From Candidatus Poribacteria bacterium (lineage in GTDB: Bacteria > Poribacteria > WGA-4E > GCA-2687025), in NCBI GenBank assembly GCA_028818695.1, contig JAPPNK010000029.1:101450-165449 (forward strand): DNA of 64,000 bases, in the 5' to 3' direction. Of the stretch, positions 49,663-52,957 are shown piece after piece (within the stretch, counting starts at the first letter, position 1; the number at the start of each line of letters is the position of its first letter). A program made the translations under genes and the position numbers. The notes beneath the pieces were generated by a model. The model was not told where the DNA came from and ran no database searches. It was given only the letters and a program-made list of their open reading frames with translations.

Positions 49663-50703
49663 TTATTCGTCGTCATCTGATTCTTCCGGGTATTTCTCAA
49701 CCGGGCTGAAAATATCTTCGTGCTCGTTGACAACGCCCAAGTTCAACTCAACCCGTTTGAAGTTATGCTCGTTCCCTGTCCCGATTTTACGTATCCGTTT
49801 ATGAGTGCCATAAACAGGCGTCAGCATTAGCTGAATTTTTTGCTGAACTTTTGTCAGCTCCTCATTCAATTTCTTCGCTTCGTTTTCTGAAAAATCGCCG
49901 CTTGCAAGACGAGACAGCAGTTCGGTTTCCTTCCGCTCTGCCTCATAATAATTGCGCCGCCCTTCTTCCGTGAGCTTGCCTTTCCTCTTAAAGTTGATGA
50001 CAAGCTCCATTGGCGCAATCATGTTGTAGATCTCGCCGTTCGGCAACTCAACTTTGTGGTAAAGCACAGATTCCGGCAATCTGCCTGCGCGAACCAACAA
50101 CGATAACGGCTCTTGCCCCTCCACCGACCATATCGGGTCCATTGCTTCTTCCAGAGCCGCGTATTTTTCATCCTCCCCAATTTTAGTCATCACGTTCTCT
50201 AATGCATCCCATCCGAGACTTCGGATCTTTCGATCCTCGCGAGAGTAGCCAAACTCTCCTAATTGCGCGTCCTTCCCAGTGAGATACTCTTCATCCATCA
50301 TAGCTTCCCACTCCGCTTCCTCCTTCGTCAATGGTTTAGGAGATTTGGCGTCTTCGGCGTACAACCTTTCAAATTCTTCGGCAACCAACTTGGCGAAGTA
50401 GTTCAACGTTTCCTCGCGCGATCCAAAATGGGTCGGAATCTCCGCGTCGGAGTTCGTTTTTTCAGCCGATTCGTTCGTGGAATCGGACATTGAATCGGCG
50501 ATTTCCGATTCAGAACTTGGCTCCTTTGGGGCGACCACGGGCGATTGCCGGTCATGCGCCTCCGCCCCGCCTTCGGCCGCCGCGCCCTGAGAAGCGGAGT
50601 CGCCCGCTTGGCGGTTGAGCAGCCGTACTAGCGCAACTGCCAACAAGCAGACCGTCAACAATGAAATGAGCGTAACAGCAACCGCTCGGTGTCGTTGATT
50701 CAT
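49663..50703 (-). CDS. Membrane-anchored protein of unknown function
   Basis: A 346-residue protein I do not recognise. It has one N-terminal helix (AVTLISLLTVCLLAVALVRLL), a Ser/Glu-rich linker (about 35-95), then a mostly helical charged domain (FAKLVAEEFERLYAEDAKSP; NEELTKVQQKIQLMLTPVYG) and an acidic end EESDDDE. In style it resembles the protein at 61660-63165 (N-terminal helix, charged body, acidic end), without clear sequence identity. Confidence 0.7.
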   Translation of the reverse strand: MNQRHRAVAVTLISLLTVCLLAVALVRLLNRQAGDSASQGAAAEGGAEAHDRQSPVVAPKEPSSESEIADSMSDSTNESAEKTNSDAEIPTHFGSREETLNYFAKLVAEEFERLYAEDAKSPKPLTKEEAEWEAMMDEEYLTGKDAQLGEFGYSREDRKIRSLGWDALENVMTKIGEDEKYAALEEAMDPIWSVEGQEPLSLLVRAGRLPESVLYHKVELPNGEIYNMIAPMELVINFKRKGKLTEEGRRNYYEAERKETELLSRLASGDFSENEAKKLNEELTKVQQKIQLMLTPVYGTHKRIRKIGTGNEHNFKRVELNLGVVNEHEDIFSPVEKYPEESDDDE

Positions 50704-50930: not shown

Positions 50931-50950
50931 ATTCCCGCCTGCGCGGGAAT
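50931..50950. repeat. dRS3-like palindrome in the 50704-51007 gap
   Basis: ATTCCCGCCTGCGCGGGAAT, a perfect-arm palindrome followed by GACGG, as in the other copies. The rest of this 300-base gap holds no gene that I can support. Confidence 0.6.
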
Positions 50951-51007
50951 GACGGTTTGGGCAGCAGACGCCGCCCGCATTCTTGACGCGGACGGCGTCT
51001 GGAACCG

Positions 51008-51844
51008 CTAATCGACCTTCTTCTGCACGCTTATCGAAAGTCCGATCTTGGGCTTCGGACGTTGACCCGATTGGACATCCCACAAAATGACACAGTCAAG
51101 GATAGAGTCCGATTCCAGGGTCGCGTCGTCAGAGAGAATACGAATCGAATGAATTGAGTGGCGCTCCGCTTTTAAAGAGGACGTCTGCAGCCCGACTTTC
51201 ATCCTCGCTGCGTCTAGGTTTTTCTTCTTTTTTGCCATGGTTTTCTCCTTCATGGGTTGGCTGGGCATGTTGGAATCGATGCGGTCAAGTTTGGGTTCAA
51301 TCCTCCTTTCCGCTCCTGTTCGTTCTTTTGCGTATGCGGCTTCTTCCGCTTCATACAGCTCTTTGAGACGCGCTTTCACTTCGGACACTTTCCGTTTCAC
51401 CGTCCCGATCGGCATCTTCAAGGCCTCTGCGATTTCAGCAAGCGCGTAGTCATACACAAAGCGCAGCTCCGCCAGCGTCCGATCCTCGCCGCGCAGCCTG
51501 TTGAGCGTCTCAAGAGCGAACGGGTCTTCCGGTTCCGCCCATTCGCGCGCGTCTCTCACCTCGGCGAGCTGGACAGGATCCATGGTCTGCTCCACGCGCC
51601 GCCGCTTCGACCTGTGAAAGTCGATGATGCGGTTTTTTGCGATCCAGAACAGCCATATCTCCAGCTGGCTCACGTTTCGGAGTCGGCTTCTATTCTTCCA
51701 TGCCTGCGTCAGCGTCTCTTGCGCGATGTCCTTCGCGTCCTCATCCGACGAAACGCGATTTCGAATATACCGATACAAACGCTCCCAGCCGCCGCTGCCG
51801 TAGCCGTATGCTTGAAAAGCTTGCCTAACAATGCCGTCGTTCAT
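51008..51844 (-). CDS. ECF sigma factor with in-frame C-terminal extension
   Basis: A 278-residue frame. Residues of about 1-175 are an ECF sigma factor: region 2 with DAKDIAQETLTQAWKNRSRL and LFWIAKNRIIDFHRSKRR, region 4 with LAELRFVYDYALAEIAEALK and PIGTVKRKVSEVKARL. A linker leads into a 76-residue segment starting MAKKKKNLDAARMKVGL (from 51238). That ATG has a good AAGGAG ribosome site 7 bases upstream and no stop lies before it. So the tail may be both a domain of the sigma factor and a separate short protein. The ATG 51844 has GAGAGG upstream; the longer frame to 52210 is shadow sequence. Confidence 0.85.
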   Translation of the reverse strand: MNDGIVRQAFQAYGYGSGGWERLYRYIRNRVSSDEDAKDIAQETLTQAWKNRSRLRNVSQLEIWLFWIAKNRIIDFHRSKRRRVEQTMDPVQLAEVRDAREWAEPEDPFALETLNRLRGEDRTLAELRFVYDYALAEIAEALKMPIGTVKRKVSEVKARLKELYEAEEAAYAKERTGAERRIEPKLDRIDSNMPSQPMKEKTMAKKKKNLDAARMKVGLQTSSLKAERHSIHSIRILSDDATLESDSILDCVILWDVQSGQRPKPKIGLSISVQKKVD

Positions 51845-51925: not shown

Positions 51926-51953
51926 ATTCCCGCTCCCCGCCTGCGCAGGAACG
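51926..51953. repeat. Degenerate dRS3-like repeat
   Basis: ATTCCCGC followed by CTGCGCAGGAACGACGG, with an insertion between the two arms. It lies in the 127-base gap upstream of the ECF sigma gene. Confidence 0.4.
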
Positions 51954-51971
51954 ACGGAAGCGGGCGACAGA

Positions 51972-52418
51972 CTAGAGGCGCAGCGGCCGTTCGGGCGACT
52001 CGATATGCGCGCGGCGGCGATTCCGTCCGACAATTTCCAACTGAACGCGAACGGCGTTTTTTGGCAGCAGCTCTTCTGCCCGGTCCGCCCATTCCACGAC
52101 GGCGACGCCTTCCGCCCCCAAAACCTCGCCCCCGCCGATGTCGAGCAGATCGTCCGCGCCGGCGAGCCGGTATAGGTCCAGGTGGCGCATGGGGAACGGC
52201 TTGCCTTCAAGCGGGTATTCGCGCATGAGGATGAAAGTCGGGCTGCGGACGCGCGCCGCGGAACCCGCCCCGCGGGCGATGCCGCGCGTCAAGCATGTTT
52301 TGCCCGAACCGAGCTCGCCAATCAGCGCGACCACATCGCCCGACCGCAGCTGACGCCCGATGCGTTCGCCCAGCGCCTCTGTTTCTTCAGGCGAGGCGGT
52401 CTCCACAATTGCGCTCAT
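51972..52418 (-). CDS. tsaE: tRNA threonylcarbamoyladenosine biosynthesis ATPase TsaE
   Basis: A 148-residue P-loop protein. Walker A is GELGSGKTCL, followed by VRSPTFILMREYP and HLDLYRLAGADDLLDIG, all typical of TsaE. It works with TsaB/TsaD to make t6A37 in tRNA. I place the start at ATG 52418, which overlaps the purE stop (ATGA); 52442 is possible. Confidence 0.95.
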   Translation of the reverse strand: MSAIVETASPEETEALGERIGRQLRSGDVVALIGELGSGKTCLTRGIARGAGSAARVRSPTFILMREYPLEGKPFPMRHLDLYRLAGADDLLDIGGGEVLGAEGVAVVEWADRAEELLPKNAVRVQLEIVGRNRRRAHIESPERPLRL

Positions 52419-52957
52419 TCCTTGCGCGTGTAGTTTTTCCATCCGAGCTCCTGCAGGCGCGCGTTCTTGCCGCGCACGCCGTCCTCTAGACTTTGCGTGT
52501 GTTCCCCCAGGAGTTGCGCGAGCCGTTCGTCGCTTAGCGCCAGTATCTGTATCGCCAGGAGAGCCGCGTTGCGCGCGCCGCCGGCGCCGACCGCAAGCGT
52601 CCCGACCGGTATGCCGGGGGGCATTTGCACCGTCGCATAGAGCGCGTCCACGCCGTTCAACGGCCCGCCATCGATGGGGACGCCGAGGACGGGCAGGTTT
52701 GTGTGCGCGGCGACGACGCCCGCCAGATGCGCCGCCCTCCCCGCTCCGCAGACGACGACGCGCAAACCCCGTTCACGCGCCGAATCGGCGTATTCAACCG
52801 CTAAACGCGGCGAACGATGCGCCGACAGGACATGCAACTCAAACGGAACGCCGAAATCTTCCAGCGTCTGCGCCGCCTGCGACATGACCGGCAGGTCGGA
52901 ATCGCTTCCCATCAGAATGCCGACAAGCGGCGCCGCAGCGTTATGTTCTTTAGGCAT
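52415..52957 (-). CDS. purE: N5-carboxyaminoimidazole ribonucleotide mutase
   Basis: A 180-residue class I PurE. GILMGSDSDLPVMSQAA and ELHVLSAHRSPRLAVEYA are the active-site segments, and GAGRAAHLAGVVAAHTNLPV follows. It converts N5-CAIR to CAIR. It lies between purD and tsaE. No purK is seen in this window. Confidence 0.96.
   Translation of the reverse strand: MPKEHNAAAPLVGILMGSDSDLPVMSQAAQTLEDFGVPFELHVLSAHRSPRLAVEYADSARERGLRVVVCGAGRAAHLAGVVAAHTNLPVLGVPIDGGPLNGVDALYATVQMPPGIPVGTLAVGAGGARNAALLAIQILALSDERLAQLLGEHTQSLEDGVRGKNARLQELGWKNYTRKE

Follow-up and report, generated by a model that had tools for sequence, protein, structure and literature searches.

An in-frame ribosome site and start codon recur at the junctions of ECF sigma factor fusions in Candidatus Poribacteria and are present in a 278-residue ECF sigma gene

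In Candidatus Poribacteria and relatives of its class, genes in which an ECF sigma factor is continued in frame by a C-terminal extension often carry a ribosome site followed by an in-frame ATG at the junction, and this junction site is strongly enriched as a feature of the class, beyond chance. The explanation that we prefer, and which we hold to be slightly more probable than its negation, is that this is a recurrent design in which an ECF sigma is joined in frame to a protein X while X retains a ribosome site and a start codon of its own within the longer gene. In the gene from which the analysis departs, X would be a fragment, and a neighbouring gene would be the likelier partner of the sigma factor. 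That gene lies in a stretch of 64,000 nucleotides (contig JAPPNK010000029.1, positions 101,450 to 165,449), the whole of which is called the window here.

The initial annotation, made from the letters of the window, described an ECF sigma factor whose frame continues through a linker into a 76-residue segment with an ATG at 51238 and an AAGGAG at a good distance. The features concerned are the following:

51008..51844, minus strand: ECF sigma factor gene with a C-terminal extension, 278 aa (open frame; Pfam sigma-70 regions 2 and 4)
51596..51781, minus strand: sigma region 2, residues 22-83 (Pfam Sigma70_r2, PF04542, E 2.4e-13)
51365..51514, minus strand: sigma region 4, residues 111-160 (Pfam Sigma70_r4_2, PF08281, E 6.7e-6)
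51239..51364, minus strand: linker without a stop, residues 161-202 (translation)
51245..51250, minus strand: AAGGAG, Shine-Dalgarno-like, with a 6-nt spacer to the internal ATG (sequence)
51008..51238, minus strand: internal in-frame start and 76-residue tail, the short product being putative (translation)

PF04542 and PF08281 are both above the Pfam cut-offs, which makes the product an ECF (group 4) sigma factor, and the 278-aa frame translates from 51844 to 51008 without a stop, so that it is indeed open across the linker. Codon 203 is the ATG (51238-51236), the preceding bases being CCC ATG AAG GAG AAA ACC. The ribosome site (AAGGAG), the spacer of 6 nt and the ATG together make a well-formed internal start in frame within the gene, and the translation gives the 76 residues that had been counted from it. 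The earlier observation on the sigma frame and its internal site is thus confirmed as real.

Taken alone, the internal site of this gene is a weak signal, barely more than chance. For comparison, 41 long frames from elsewhere in the window were kept, the frame covering the sigma gene being left out; in these an equal ribosome site was found at 12 of the 349 internal in-frame ATGs and in 10 of the 315 stretches of 45 codons. Since other internal ATGs also have an equal site, and since 25% of synonymous codon draws of the stretch retain the AAGGAG-ATG site, it is not unusual by itself. No orthologue of the gene was found among the matches listed in 57 other genomes, the best having 33% identity over 143 residues of the sigma part, nor in a wider search of genome contigs, which gave four distant matches only. 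The gene also lies outside the sigma subfamily A1 considered below (no own-genome match at 1e-25), and in the synonymous null computed gene by gene, which used 36 codons, its ATG, at offset 38, fell outside and hence scored zero.

The initial annotation had further suggested that the 76 residues could be a built-in regulator, and had proposed a homologue survey to see whether they occur alone. Pfam reported nothing when the tail was scanned by itself. An own-genome search with the 76 residues, taken as far as E 10, yielded 80 matches, the tail itself among them, and no stand-alone copy was found in the own genome or among the matches listed in 58 genomes (own included), where no listed match sits in an open frame shorter than 284 aa. 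In 26 of 26 re-examined loci (L002-L008 and L055-L073), the best-matching frame is a WD40 array of 6 to 17 repeats, the repeat profile used for this check having been made from L003-L008, so that those six are not independent; two of the 26 loci were in addition read over their whole length. A one-repeat WD40 profile from the own genome scores the tail at 13.8 bits, or 12.5 bits when the best-matching locus, L002, is excluded; these scores were reached by none of 20,000 shuffles. When 1063 pieces of 76 residues from the window were scanned, the tail piece (12.5) was outscored by none but the clear WD40 pieces, and the next two scored 11.6 (a piece from the beginning of a WD40 frame) and 11.0. 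Tail residues 28-61 look like a single decayed WD40 repeat:

51056..51157, minus strand: degenerate WD40-like repeat, tail residues 28-61 (own-genome WD40 profile; 26/26 WD40-array loci)

The C-terminal WD40 content of the protein is this one degenerate repeat, with a low profile score (12.5-13.8 bits) and without a Pfam match. In the AlphaFold model, tail residues 216-258 and 260-278 are placed without confidence (pLDDT under 50). Judged by eye, the tail contains no extended run of hydrophobic residues and hence no membrane segment of the kind expected in a sigma/anti-sigma fusion. Because the tail amounts to about one degenerate WD40 repeat, with its best matches in WD40 arrays in all 26 loci, a built-in regulator is unlikely and that suggestion was not borne out; the survey also went against the segment occurring alone. 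The tail looks as if it had been put together from scraps, and a short product, should this gene give one, would probably do little by itself.

One of these scraps may be related to a repeat in the local DNA:

51182..51206, no strand: inverted-repeat arm, 25 nt, 24/25, within the tail-coding DNA (repeat search)
52227..52251, no strand: the other inverted-repeat arm, within the upstream gene 51972-52442 (repeat search)

The two arms differ by one mismatch, the chance expectation of such a pair is 0.00, and the arm at 51182-51206 lies shortly before the WD40-like repeat of the tail. The upstream gene is one that we take to be tsaE-like. A second explanation of the window gene, less probable than the first though still quite possible, is that the tail is 3' sequence accreted without a role: the sigma frame would have drifted past an old stop into a WD40 scrap and the 25-nt inverted copy, and the AAGGAG-ATG would be a coincidence. 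The absence of an orthologue from both searches, the single weak repeat, the inverted repeat common to the tail and the upstream gene, the frequency of equal sites at other internal ATGs and in synonymous draws, and a model in which most of the tail is without confidence are all consistent with it. It is opposed by the finding that the same design is enriched in the fused sigma genes of the own genome and of the class.

That finding comes from a survey of ECF genes, from the own genome and from relatives of the class, that continue for 60 or more residues as a C-terminal extension; in this survey 99 fused frames were reduced to 93 genes (16 clusters at 60% identity) by removing repeats of the same gene. 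A site was defined as a 5-base ribosome site 4-11 nt ahead of an in-frame ATG, and the junction as the 45 codons after region 4. Such a site stands at 56 of the 177 in-frame ATGs of the junctions compared with 4 of 174 in the sigma part and 18 of 870 later in the extension, and at none of the 98 out-of-frame ATGs. Counted by gene, it is present in 56/93 fused genes versus 17/1039 control stretches, rates that are valid for fused genes only, the genes having been chosen as long open frames among the matches listed. In the own genome, a 5-mer site and ATG occur in 10 of the 12 genes of two clusters of TM-tail paralogues.

The junction site is not universal in sigma fusions. Clusters 64 (3/16) and 70 (0/6) are mostly without it, and it is also missing from three single-gene clusters and from one of the two genes of cluster 14. 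In clusters 66 (4/7) and 18 (3/3), the site is supplied by a Glu-Glu pair close to where region 4 ends, perhaps by coincidence. The site is encoded in all three codon phases, as RGE, KE, RR or EE according to the family, which argues for conservation of the nucleotides even where the peptide differs.

Peptide and site are nevertheless entangled. With the protein held fixed, synonymous draws have a mean predicted pairing of -5.8 versus the -7.7 observed, and in the synonymous-codon null taken gene by gene, 10 of 91 junctions reach p<=0.05 (6 of 597 control windows do so); since only these few are significant singly, part of the signal is peptide. The per-gene null, not being decisive for single junctions, was dropped as the decisive test in favour of pooled codon tests.

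The pooled tests were made on subfamily A1 (alignment A1), which is the best-sampled sigma subfamily. A search of 117 genomes gave A1 matches in 58, and fusion is the rule in this subfamily because none of the 150 matches listed has an open frame shorter than 269 aa. The A1 gene set (33 + 44, giving 74 after filtering and de-duplication) recurrently has the site, with a predicted pairing of -7 kcal/mol or better at the junction in 68 of the 74 genes, and the codon test was applied to 39 non-redundant junctions. Arginine codons at positions 3-5 before the junction Met are AGA or AGG in 26 of 26 cases, whereas ahead of other Mets the count is 23 of 105 and over the final 60 sigma residues 120 of 404; this leads to the conclusion that selection acts on the nucleotides at the junction. 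Glycine codons behave similarly, GGA or GGG being used in 27/30 at the junctions versus 87/143 before other Mets and 37/104 in the sigma part.

We consider it unlikely that the purine-rich junction tract has some purpose other than initiation, for example to make ribosomes pause from one domain to the next or to encode a basic Gly/Arg linker. This could account for the fact that synonymous draws already average so much of the observed pairing with the protein fixed, but it does not account for the ATGs, which stand at initiation spacing in frame and not out of frame, for AGR and GGR codon biases that exceed usage, or for the use of three codon phases with different peptides. Moreover, the FtsZ/DnaE boundary within the long fusions examined showed no such site and no second internal start; some scattered sites lie deep in the DnaE part.

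That the window holds a plain gene pair whose sigma stop was lost through a sequencing error is very improbable. Unfused sigmas in relatives do end near the start of the fused linkers (e.g., LRKEFGVEPE-stop in L038), but the window frame is clean and fused frames recur in the 150 listed A1 matches, single-contig genomes included. An ancestral pair of unfused sigma, stop, ribosome site and WD40 was not found in 20 regions picked from short-frame matches, some of them near contig ends. In one locus (L167, G053:C1), a sigma-WD40 gene is broken just past the junction by a frame change, after which the WD40 continues in another frame; this may be an assembly fault. In tandem sigma arrays, fused copies have as neighbours some frames that resemble the TM-tails and contain no sigma domain (L178:7531-8052, L179:7700-8386 and L179:8169-9329).

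The nature of X in the favoured design, an ECF sigma joined to a protein with its own start, varies widely. The extensions of the 74 A1 genes were assigned to kinds by short patterns, and ten representatives were submitted to Pfam. WD40, one of the two commonest kinds (33/74), was found in L126, the FtsZ GTPase domain in L186, a full FtsZ in L191, PurC in L210, DnaE in L196, FtsZ and DnaE parts together in L105 and L140, DnaN with all three domains in L093, and a helix-turn-helix in L219 (1.9e-5); L018, a TM-tail paralogue of the own genome, has a weak DnaJ_C match below the Pfam cut-off. Domains with a membrane segment are also among the extensions, in the TM-tail paralogues of the own genome. 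In-frame fusions of an ECF sigma to an extra DnaN, FtsZ, FtsZ plus DnaE, PurC or DnaE were seen in L093, L101, L103, L105, L140, L186, L191, L196, L210 and others.

The idea that these fusions are the sole copies of FtsZ, DnaE or DnaN was rejected on the evidence of ten genomes. A separate FtsZ frame of 411-442 aa exists in 10 of the 10 genomes checked; a separate DnaE finger match lies in a frame of 1178-1202 aa in nine of ten, the own genome (91% complete) being the one without it; and a DnaN match outside sigma-length fusions exists in all ten, the one in the own genome covering half of the model. The GGGTG[TS]G motif is retained in 13 of 32 FtsZ-type fusions, and the other 19 are without an intact motif.

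When three DnaN fusions were aligned with one stand-alone DnaN, the internal Met coincided with the Met of MELTFERD that opens the latter, so that the partner gene seems in these cases to have brought its former start with it. In several FtsZ fusions the alignment begins close to the N-terminus of FtsZ. At DnaN matches in two further loci, frames of 581-582 aa (L220:13787-15529 and L221:3036-4781) open with an ECF-like sigma of another type, and the joining of sigma to DnaN may have arisen more than once.

A better candidate than the tail for the partner of the window sigma is the gene that follows it:

49663..50703, minus strand: next gene downstream, 346 aa, candidate sigma partner (homology to the L022 tail)

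This neighbour (read from 50703 to 49663) encodes one N-terminal hydrophobic segment, as judged by eye, and its residues 165-330 resemble the end of the tail of L022, a fused ECF sigma paralogue (40% over 179 aa; E 1e-28 against 13 own-genome tails, 3.2e-25 in the genome search). The homology is confined to these residues and excludes the N-terminal part. The whole tail of L022 stands behind GGAGGAG...GTG, 24 residues past the sigma part. The family of the neighbour has 14 matches in the own genome, the neighbour itself included, and zero in the 19 other genomes searched. An ECF gene lies within about 1.5 kb of a family gene in only two of the ten loci fetched, namely the window locus (L223) and the fused L225, which is the L022 gene again; in seven of the eight other loci, the start codon of the family gene stands behind a ribosome site of at least 4 bases (loose pattern). 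The extension of L022 thus has relatives that are genes by themselves, including the neighbour of the window sigma gene, whereas no free-standing copy of the 76-residue piece was seen in the searches. The similarity to a sigma-fused tail makes the neighbour at 49663-50703, rather than the tail, more likely to be the working partner of the window sigma.

How the design might operate can be outlined as follows. Ribosomes starting at the sigma ATG would make sigma-X, and some ribosomes would start at the junction ATG and give free X, so that fused ECF genes would make both the sigma fusion and the free extension. X might restrain the sigma or respond to a signal, and free X might compete. At the window locus, all that is left of X would be a fragment with a single degenerate WD40-like repeat, whose short product would probably be useless or nearly so, and the more likely partner would be the adjacent protein with its one hydrophobic segment, a homologue of which lies behind an internal ribosome site in L022. 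The initial interpretation of the window gene holds in part: the open linker, the formed internal start and the same design across the class stand, and the tail as a built-in regulator does not. A broader proposal, to which we give an even chance, is that dual-output sigma genes exist across the class, with a WD40 propeller, an extra FtsZ, DnaE, DnaN or PurC, or a domain preceded by a single membrane segment as partner, that selection keeps the ribosome site of this partner and that free X competes with or titrates sigma-X.

Internal in-frame starts that yield N-terminally shorter products are familiar in bacteria, as in the short form of CheA and the forms of IF2. The genes described here are like these in having a ribosome site and an ATG within a longer frame, and differ in that the putative start is found again and again where a sigma part meets its partner, the partners being unrelated to one another.

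Among the known ECF groups, ECF57 has, according to the passages that describe it in PMC8999054, a WD40 extension and two conserved cysteines linking regions 2 and 4. The likeness lies in the ECF core with an extension, WD40 being common in the A1 fusions. However, there is no cysteine in residues 1-202 of the window protein, its WD40 part is one degenerate repeat, and the ECF57 passages of that source mention no internal start; because the cysteines named for ECF57 are missing, the window gene was not filed under that group. The same source describes, in the parts concerned, sigma/anti-sigma fusions that are activated by proteolysis (IutY and ECF48/52/53). The paralogues of the own genome likewise consist of a sigma, one hydrophobic segment (by eye) and a variable domain; unlike what those parts describe, they retain, within the gene, a ribosome site and a start codon for the tail. 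The window tail, being without a hydrophobic segment by eye, departs from IutY and ECF48/52/53 in this respect too. Among the papers listed in a literature search of largely open-access scope, none dealt with internal starts at the borders of sigma fusions or with sigma-FtsZ fusions.

The window gene alone is of modest importance. If the junction starts are used, a reading of sigma fusions as genes with one product misses a second product in each of them, and the ratio of sigma-X to free X would be a regulatory dial. The joining of a sigma to an extra FtsZ, DnaE, DnaN or PurC would be an unexpected link between transcription and division or replication; if the proposal is true, sigma factors carrying spare division or replication proteins would couple transcription to the state of the divisome and the replisome.

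Two observations on the surrounding DNA may be added. The sigma gene is flanked by two copies (91%) of the GC-rich repeat CCCGCCTGCGCGGGAATGACGG, at 50934-50955 and 51936-51957. Further away, between 32887 and 40067 of the window, five long WD40-repeat frames are clustered on both strands.
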